Shown piece by piece: positions 4,160-18,104 of a stretch of 64,000 nucleotides of DNA. The notes beneath the pieces are model-generated. The model had not been told where the DNA came from. It did no database searches and worked only from the letters and a program-made list of their open reading frames with translations. The DNA is from Deuterostichococcus epilithicus. Taxonomy: Eukaryota > Chlorophyta > Trebouxiophyceae > Prasiolales > Stichococcaceae. The number at the start of each line of letters is the position of its first letter. Within the stretch, counting starts at the first letter, position 1. The position numbers were made by a program, and so were the translations under genes. The DNA lies in the NCBI GenBank assembly GCA_033439295.1, contig JAVTLE010000008.1, positions 1 through 64,000 on the forward strand, written 5' to 3'.

Positions 4160-7100
4160 TCATGAATCGGGCGCCAGCCGCTCCCCGCTGTATGAGGATG
4201 CCCGCAGCTCGGCAGACAGCCCCCGTAGCTCCGCCAGCTGCGCAGCCGCAGGACTCAGCTGGCTCTGCAGAGCCGTCTGCGGGAGCCAGGAGCCGCTGGC
4301 GGGCGTCGGCATTGGGTGAGCGGCAAGGGCTGGCGACACCGGTCGCTCGCCCGCGGCCGAGGGCGGCGACGAGGAGAGTGCGGACGCCGCTGCCGGCAGC
4401 CACGGCAGCTCCTGGGCGATGAAACATATCCGTCACGTCGATGCACCCCGACTCCGCACAGAGCTTGCATGCATTCTTTCAGTGTTATCGTAGAGCTGCC
4501 TCAATGGCAGCGCAGTCAGAACTGCGACGCATGGCAGGTGACCGCACTCCCGGTCTGCATCATCAGGTAGGACGATCTGAAACTCTTGGTCAGTGAGCCA
4601 AGCACGGAGACACCCAAGCACCTGCAGGGAGCCGGCCTCCAGGCCGGTGCTGTTGATACTGGTGCACCGCGAGTCGAGGCAGGAGGAGGACGCCCGCAGA
4701 GTTTCCGCCTGCAGCGCCTCCATGTTCTGCTGCACCAGCGCCCCCGTGTTCCTGCAGAGCGCGGCTTGGGAGTAGGGTGTGCGGTTCCGAACAGAAGGTG
4801 GAGCACGACCATCGCCTTGACTTCTGAGCACCATCGCCAAAATCCCCGCAGTTTGTCATTGTCAGAGGCCCGATGTGCAAACAGCTTGGGTGCTGATAAC
4901 ACAAAGAACGCGGGCATGGAGACCGACCTGAAGCTGAAGTTGTGGAAGTCAGTCTCCGGGGTAGCAGCCTCGCCAGGGGCCGCGCCCTCTGGCGTGTGTG
5001 GGCTGTCATCCACGTTGGAGCCGCTGCTGCCTGCACGGAGCGGCCGTGCCAGACTTTCAAGCCCTCCGCCATGGAGTACAATGCCACCGTCAACCCTCTG
5101 ACAGCACGCACAGAAGGCTGAAGGAAGGACCGCACCTTGTAGCCTTTCTGGTTCAGGTCCACACGCAGAGGCCAGCAAGGGCAAAGCGATCATCTGCCTT
5201 GGCAGGGCGCCACACCTGTGGACTCGCTGCCATCTGTGTAATCCGCGCCGGCGCCGTCCACCGACATGGGCGCCACCTCCGCCGAGGCCGGTCGCCCCAA
5301 CATGCTGCTGCCCACGCCGCCGTGCGGCAGCGCCAGCCCGCTGCCAGGATCCACATCTAGGGACGACCTCCGCTGTCCGTCTGCATGGCAAGGCGACGAT
5401 GTGAGGTCCGACCCGAACCCAAAGGGAGTCCGAGACGTTGTTGCAGCCTCTGTAGGCTGCATCCCGAAGACGTCATGCCCTGACGCCAGTGGAGGAGCTG
5501 GGTGTCGCTCGGGTCACCGTGGAACATAGGGCCCCGTTTCTCAGGCTAGTCGGTAACCTTGCAAGCTGGCACGCCGACCAAGTGCTGAGCCTGCTTTGTG
5601 AGAGAAGACTCACAAAGAACAGGGCGGCAGGTGGGCAAGTCGCACCTGCGGGCGAGTCCACGGCGAGGGAGGTGGTCGAGCTGGCGCGGCTGAGGGCGCT
5701 GCCCGCCATGCTGCTGGCGCGCCGCCGCCGCCTCCCTGCAGCACGGCGCAGAGCCGCTGCTTGACCCTTGTTGTGAGGAAACACTGCCATTCGAGCGATC
5801 CCTGCCAGTTCAATGCACGTCGTGCACACTGCTGGCTTGGTGCTGGAGGGATGCCCCCCACAGCTGCACCATTGATGCTGTCAGCTGTCGAAGGCCTCTG
5901 TGCATGGCGAATGCGTTGCACAGCAGGCACGGGACTCAGAACCCGTGGATCAGCACTGCTGCACCCGCAGTCGGGCGCATATGACGTGCGCTGGGCACTG
6001 TTGCGAGGCGTGAGGTTTGGCGCACCGCGATTGGGCGAGGTGCCACGTGACTGATGCCCCGGTGAACGTGACCACTGTGAGTCCACGTCCGACCGGCTGT
6101 CCACGTCCCGATGCATCGACCGCTGCGACACCTGCAGGAAGAGCGCAGTAGAGAGGCTCGCTGTCGAACTCCAGAGCTCCGAATGTTTGCATGTGACCAG
6201 ATTGCAGAGCTGGACCGGTTCACCCTGGCCAGGGTGATGAAGCTGCAGCTGCCTCTGTGGAGCAGGACCGGGCCAGCCGGTGTGCCGGAGCTGAAACAGC
6301 GCTGCAGAATGGCAAGCAGCGCTCACTGTTGCCTGAAAGCATGTTCGGACCAGGGCCGCACCGGTTTTGGGGCGAAGTAGCTGGTGTCGTACTCGTGCTC
6401 CAGGGTGGGCACAAATGCCGCCTTCTGCCGCGTCAGGCTCGCCCAGTCCAGACCCGCAAACCAGGGGTGCAGCTTCACCTGAGCATGTATGCGATGGCAT
6501 AACGGTCAGGACGAGAATGCGCGGCTGCATCTGATGTGTGGCTGGCGTATGCCAGACATCCTGTTGCACCACTACACAAGGAGATGGCTGCACATGACAT
6601 GGGGCTGACATGTGGCTGAACCTCACTCATGAAGGATGTGAGCGTTGTCCGGCTGTTGCAATACTGCAGTGCGTCAGTCCTCGCACTGTGATTCGTGAGG
6701 TGACTCGCTGGAGTGGTTTCCCTTGCAAAACTCAATGCACTGCTGTGCACATGGCGTGGCCCGCAGGGGTGAGCACCTCGCCGGCGCCGCGGGCGCCGAG
6801 CCGCTGTCCAGGGTCGGAGCACAGCAGGCAGTCGATGAGGTCGCGACACTCCTCCGAGATGTCGTCCGGCCACTCGATGCGCCGCTCCAGGATGTTATCG
6901 AACACCTCCTACGGGAAGGCAAGGGCAGGGGAGAGTGCCATCAGGCGCTTCGGCAACACACTGTCAGGCCGAGCCACGGCGGCACCTCTGTGTTCTTGTC
7001 ATGACGCTTGGCTCACATCGTGCTCCGCATTGATTGCAGAGGCTGCGGGACGTGGCCAGATTGCGACACCCACACGGGCTCAGAGGCCTCACAACGTGGC

Positions 7101-17341: not shown

Positions 17342-18104
17342 GTGCCGACGCCTATGGCTGTCAGATTCAGTAGCCGGCCGGCGTCGCTGCCACAGCAAGC
17401 GCGCGGGCGCATCAGGCTCGCATCATCACCGTCGGGTTTCTGGAGTGCACAGGCGCCTAAATCGGCAGCAGACATCGAGAAGGAGCAGGAGGCGCTGCTG
17501 GCCAAGAAGTACGGCGGCCTAGCCAAGAAGAAGCTCATGCCAAAGGTGTGCCGGGCCGCGAGGATGCTCAGTCCCGAGCTCATGTAACACTGTGTTGTGA
17601 TCAGCTGCTGCTGGAGATGCTGCACGCGCGTGTCCAACGCATCGATGCAGCGCCACCACTGGATGGCAGCACATTCGTGCCAGGCAGTTACCGGCCTGGT
17701 CCGGCAATCGGGGGTCATGCGCCTCTGTGTAGTCCACCAAGTGGGTGTTTGGCATTGGCAACCAGCGCGTGGCCCGCTCACCCACCGTTGTAATTGCTCG
17801 TATCAGCGGGCTTACGCCCGCTGAATCGCGCAGTCTTCCATGCAAACCAGCCTGAAACAAACTAACAAAAACTGAACACCAAGTCGATTCAATGCAGGAG
17901 CGCAACTACTTTGACTCTGCGGACTGGGCGCTCAGCAAGCAGGGGAAGAAGCCGGAAAACGTTGCGGGCGCTGCCCCGGGGCCGCCGCCAACGGCACTGC
18001 CACCCAAGCTGGAGCCCAGCGACCATCTGAAGCCGCGCCGCTCGTCGCACCTGGGCGACCTGGAGGCCGCCTCCAGCATCGCCTCCAGCCACACATCGTC
18101 GTGA
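17342..18104 (+). CDS. endosulfine / ARPP-19 family PP2A-B55 inhibitor
   Basis: A small phosphoprotein. After phosphorylation by Greatwall/Rim15 kinases, members of this family inhibit PP2A-B55. Exon 17453-17545 codes the helical part with ALLAKKYGGLAKKKLMPK. Exon 17898-18104 opens with ERNYFDSADWALSKQGKK, which holds the family core (FDSGDY in animals, FDSADW here, with Ser as the phosphosite), and ends in a Pro/Ser-rich tail with stop at 18102-18104. The splice is GT-AG in phase 0. The N-terminus is uncertain. The frame is open upstream to an ATG at 17342, but a good acceptor (TGCACAG) directly before 17453 suggests that the true start may lie in an earlier exon. Identification of the two core exons is firm. 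Confidence 0.88.

Follow-up and report, generated by a model that had tools for sequence, protein, structure and literature searches.

The published literature leaves open whether a functional Greatwall kinase operates in the plant lineage, a 2025 review describing plants as being without Greatwall homologues but as possessing MAST-type kinases of undetermined functional homology (PMC11829769). The question is raised by a locus of the green alga Deuterostichococcus epilithicus in which an IRE/Greatwall-type kinase gene and a gene for endosulfine, the protein activated by such kinases in animals and yeast, are neighbours, within the 64,000 nucleotides of contig JAVTLE010000008.1 (positions 1 to 64,000) that were analysed and are termed the window. 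A sequence-only reading of this DNA had stated that plant Greatwall is not clearly assigned, in agreement with the 2025 review, and had proposed IRE as the algal Greatwall.

The kinase gene, on the minus strand, extends from an ATG at 16300 to a stop codon at 4160 and the endosulfine gene, on the plus strand, from 17077 to a stop codon at 18104, the two stop codons being the outer coordinates that the sequence-only reading had given for the locus. Spliced models of both genes confirm the divergent, head-to-head arrangement which had been described, and the linkage is real. The proximity of the genes also stands, but the spacing of about 1 kb does not, as the ATG-to-ATG gap (16301-17076) is modelled as 776 bp, the lower value reflecting a small initial endosulfine exon, at 17077, that is included in the model. 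Bidirectional gene pairs are defined by transcription start sites within 1 kb, whereas the 776 bp measured here is the spacing of start codons taken from spliced models. Of 18 stop-to-stop ORFs of at least 60 residues that overlap the gap, 14 were scanned without a Pfam match at E 0.01 and the remaining four extend into kinase exon E1; thus, no third gene is seen between kinase and endosulfine. A search of the gap, the candidate shared promoter, against the organism's own genome detected neither a second copy nor any other match.

The kinase gene model (4160..16300, minus strand; spliced model and Pfam) consists of 27 exons, with phase kept at 25 of 26 splice junctions when two Ns (11041-11042) are excluded from E8, the join between E5 and E6 (13614/13050) being the sole junction out of phase. 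These Ns disrupt the E8 reading frame and are probably a small assembly flaw. E1 (15527..16300), containing the start codon and a low-complexity N-terminus, is in phase with both E2 and the provisional exon E1b (15026..15088), the latter placed by the spliced model. An N-terminal region is encoded by E2-E5 (13614..14844, comprising 14844-14767, 14616-14522, 14204-14120 and 13848-13614), for which a Pfam scan gave no match, and is followed by E6-E10 (10154..13050, comprising 13050-12677, 12396-12243, 11171-10878, 10644-10583 and 10298-10154), in which a CRICE...H...C zinc-finger-like motif, read from the translation, spans E8/E9. In the same spliced model, E11 (9761..9944) encodes the stretch preceding the kinase domain and E12 (9333..9481) the glycine loop and catalytic lysine, ending at a single GC donor after 9333. 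A likely GC-AG intron is positioned directly after the catalytic lysine codon, at 9333 on the minus strand. The catalytic domain with HRDLKPDN and DFGLS lies in E13-E15 (8239..9145, comprising 9145-9053, 8779-8609 and 8375-8239; model and Pfam), a long activation-segment insert and GTPDYLAPE in E16-E17 (7442..8063, comprising 8063-7915 and 7725-7442; model and alignment) and, by the model, the C-lobe and AGC C-tail with DTSYF in E18-E20 (6362..7223, comprising 7223-7149, 6908-6777 and 6478-6362). The modelled C-terminus occupies E21-E26 (4160..6131, comprising 6131-5965, 5710-5646, 5380-5216, 5030-4928, 4751-4622 and 4411-4160), with FHNFSF in E24 matching a hydrophobic motif. The N-terminal region, including E2-E5, the CRICE...H finger-like motif and the FHNFSF/NFSF tail may resemble plant IRE.

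The AGC catalytic domain is intact, Lys, HRD, DFG and APE all being present, and the kinase matches Pfam Pkinase at E 3.7e-65. Compared with solved sequences, the kinase domain matched Greatwall in the top two positions (best 329 bits), followed by CBK1 (265 bits), STK38/NDR1 (254 bits) and PKA (242 bits), in a ranking of the best 60 of 574 matches at E up to 1e-30 from which MAST1-4 kinases were absent. An unrooted six-kinase tree, in which MAST, Rim15 and plant IRE are not represented, pairs the algal kinase with Greatwall at a support of 93/94, just under the program's star threshold of 95/80, while an NDR-like kinase of the same genome, CBK1 and STK38 group apart from this pair with support of 97/98. 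Alignment indicated an expanded DFG-to-APE segment of 156 residues. When Greatwall was searched in reverse against the algal genome, at least 47 matches were obtained, an exon of the kinase gene ranking first with 52.7 bits and three further exons of this gene occurring among the matches listed; a kinase on contig C3 ranked second with 49 bits, a small margin for a single best exon. Pfam scans of two pieces of the kinase at E up to 1 detected neither DUF1908 nor PDZ, the MAST1-4 architecture, nor PAS or response-regulator domains, the architecture of Rim15, in a model where a piece could be missing at the out-of-phase E5/E6 join. Of the kinases compared, Greatwall is thus the nearest in sequence to the encoded protein, ahead of NDR and PKA, and the earlier placement in a family that includes Greatwall is supported.

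Endosulfine is encoded on the plus strand by three modelled exons, 109 residues in all: exon 1 (17077..17106, MDAPSGQPPQ), exon 2 (17453..17545, the KYGGL region) and exon 3 (17898..18104, FDSADW with Ser48 and a C-terminal RRSS), the last supported by Pfam in addition to the spliced model. The spliced protein scores 52.1 bits against Pfam PF04667, for which the cut-off is 29.8, and the last exon reaches 41 bits by itself. The FDSxD core is kept, the phosphosite serine of FDSADW being Ser48 (codon 17916-17918) in the context NYFDSADWAL; the identification of an endosulfine with its core and phosphosite, made from the letters of the DNA, is therefore borne out. The C-terminal RRSS resembles the PKA site of animal ENSA. 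MASTL is proposed to prefer sites with a hydrophobic -2 position, basic -6 and +5 positions, and polar or hydrophobic residues from +1 to +4 (PMC9217955). Ser48 matches this preference in part: Phe occupies -2, but the basic residues fall at -5 and -7 instead of -6, and Leu is found at +5. Endosulfine is reported to be conserved in plants (PMC5371999, PMC10418862).

Copy number was assessed by exon-by-exon searches over the 46.8 Mb genome, in which match counts are lower bounds. The kinase domain gave at least 78 matches, among which we recognised no second member of the Greatwall/MAST branch, three other loci having been inspected more closely; other AGC kinases are present, including one NDR-like and one PKA-like by eye. 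The strongest match outside the kinase gene, the C3 kinase with a 65% exon match, was considered as a second Greatwall-type kinase and rejected: STK38/NDR1 is the best match to the 150 residues at its N-terminus (207 bits), and the six-kinase tree places it among the NDR kinases. Endosulfine gave one match, and human B55 gave six, all within a single locus (C3:1814987-1817753). This PP2A-B55 locus is situated ~54 kb from the NDR-like kinase, both being on C3. Kinase, endosulfine and B55 each look single-copy by these searches, so that no component of the switch appears to be missing.

We therefore weigh the two genes as enzyme and substrate of the organism's only Greatwall-endosulfine-PP2A/B55 switch, a reading to which we assign a probability of roughly 0.7. 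The IRE-type kinase would phosphorylate endosulfine at Ser48 within FDSADW, phosphorylated endosulfine would bind and inhibit PP2A-B55, and CDK phosphorylations would in consequence persist at mitotic entry; an alternative setting, as in yeast, would be nutrient-driven cell-cycle decisions. In animals, MASTL, MAST2 and MAST3 are all reported to phosphorylate this ENSA/ARPP site (PMC12732324, PMC12024977). That the IRE-like kinase is the algal Greatwall is likely, an assessment based chiefly on family membership and copy number; the single kinase, endosulfine and B55 locus make it the candidate more than linkage does. The sequence-only reading, which had regarded the linkage as pointing to this identity, is supported in part: the identity is likely, but the linkage does not as yet support it, no excess of cis motifs having been found. 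Indeed, the switch may operate whether or not the 776 bp constitutes a shared promoter, as this explanation does not need linkage.

What the linkage signifies is a separate matter. At somewhat better than even odds, the two proteins may well cooperate while their genes are adjacent by accident, without selection, near a chromosome end. Bases 1-2700 of the window, a subtelomeric repeat by own-genome search, recur at the start of each of the contigs C12, C13, C9, C15, C18, C4 and C17 and at the C3 end. Other contigs carry further matches at high coordinates, and a match on C6 (160979-161985) does not lie at a contig end. The repeat contains inverted arms at 11-282 and 1478-1749 that are 89% complementary and a perfect ATGCA pentamer array of 10.6 copies (596-648), and short arrays matching its bases 318-354 at several contig ends are CCCTAAA-type by sequence, in 21-base steps. 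It is followed by 3.4 copies of a 171-bp satellite (2684..3284), also detected close to the end of C9 and at each end of C18. Only 1.46 kb separates the kinase stop codon from the shared repeat, and 11 ORFs of 105 to 194 residues within bases 576 to 4422 gave no Pfam match; kinase and endosulfine are therefore the outermost genes identified at this contig end. Inward of endosulfine, the next gene identified is the start of a chaperonin-60 gene (19671-20241; Pfam E 1.8e-9), which was matched when its first ORF, without a Pfam match alone, was joined with the next. Subtelomeric regions rearrange readily, and the position of the pair is consistent with accidental adjacency. Over the whole window, neither the E2F pattern (12 matches against 12.3 expected from shuffles) nor the MSA pattern (six against 7.9) occurred in excess, which is also in keeping with accident. 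A rough estimate, which takes the genome to contain 10,000 genes and the known functional pairs to number one to five thousand, yields ~0.2 to 1 chance neighbour pairs per genome. Because chance alone could thus bring up to about one such pair together in a genome, we rank accidental adjacency above a selected unit. For exactly this kinase and endosulfine, fixed in advance, the chance would however be about 1 in 20,000, again assuming 10,000 genes, and this counts against accident.

Selection of the pair as a unit, in which a shared bidirectional promoter would co-express kinase and substrate, is a tentative alternative that we consider doubtful. The short ATG-to-ATG distance with no gene seen between is consistent with it, and the idea of a shared promoter is not far-fetched, as green algae arrange histone genes as divergent pairs, co-expressed in Chlamydomonas and also present in other chlorophytes (PMC8226298). 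The gap itself, however, carries no signal of motif, repeat or composition. Its GC content of 59% is ordinary, ~21% of equally long stretches of the window being as low or lower, and no repeats were detected in 16200-17200. Within the gap, exact E2F sites and TATAAA were sought and neither was present, whereas one MSA-like site with one mismatch (16302-16312), one G-box (16769-16774) and two CCAAT elements (at 16549 and 16744) were found; none of these counts is weighed as evidence on linkage. Searches for the linkage elsewhere covered viral contigs, in which none of 30, 3 and 248 pattern matches was confirmed as a relative, and prokaryote contigs, with 90 pattern matches in 15 loci, all bacterial by title and at most 37% identical, both being non-algal sets that are uninformative on algae. 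In the literature, the titles and abstract beginnings listed mentioned no linkage of Greatwall and endosulfine genes. Were the linkage to prove conserved, the kinase-substrate pair would gain genetic support.

With respect to function, the kinase could alternatively have a plant-type IRE role in cytoskeleton and cell shape while another kinase phosphorylates endosulfine, which we consider unlikely. Published roles of plant IRE kinases point to root hairs and the cytoskeleton (PMC12732324) and a further paper states that plants lack a separate MASTL orthologue (PMC12024977), both of which count against the switch, and the NDR-like and PKA-like kinases show that other AGC kinases are encoded in the genome. 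Against a plant-type role are the failure to recognise another kinase of the Greatwall/MAST branch among the own-genome matches, three other loci of which were inspected more closely, and the ENSA-type phosphorylation common to the animal MASTL, MAST2 and MAST3 kinases. No report of IRE having been tested on endosulfine in plants was found, again in the titles and abstract beginnings listed. Also unlikely is the compound proposal in which IRE represents Greatwall in the green lineage and this alga, in addition, keeps kinase and substrate as a single regulatory unit, with a shared promoter next to the telomere through which local chromatin could tie both to quiescence.

The proposed algal switch can be compared with known systems. 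Like human Greatwall/MASTL, to which its kinase domain is ~53% identical over 300 aligned positions with the insert excluded, the algal kinase has a long DFG-APE insert; unlike it, the algal protein has a long N-terminus that bears a zinc-finger-like motif, FHNFSF in its C-terminus, and 156 residues from DFG to APE in place of a T-loop of 460. Published T-loops are 37 residues in MAST1-4 and 460 in MASTL with plant IREH1 between, IREH1 being placed nearer the MASTL line, yet as an early outgroup, and the likeness of the plant DUF being structure-based (PMC12024977). The algal kinase shares with plant IRE/IREH1/IRE3 an intermediate T-loop, as reported for IREH1, but differs in number, Arabidopsis having four IRE genes (PMC12024977) and the algal genome one seen. 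Because the alga appears to have a single gene each for kinase, endosulfine and B55, in place of the four Arabidopsis IRE genes, clean knockouts in it would give a direct answer as to a working Greatwall in the plant lineage. Rim15-Igo1/2 of budding yeast and Ppk18/Cek1-Igo1 of fission yeast are, in print, likewise named Greatwall and endosulfine (PMC6941129). They differ from the algal system, in which the two scanned kinase pieces gave no PAS or response-regulator match, and in kinase to endosulfine gene number, one to two in budding yeast and two to one in fission yeast (PMC6941129) compared with the one to one seen here. The divergent histone pairs of green algae resemble the algal locus in placing functional partners head to head, but recur across several algae, with replication histones co-expressed in Chlamydomonas (PMC8226298), whereas the kinase-endosulfine pair is described here from one genome.
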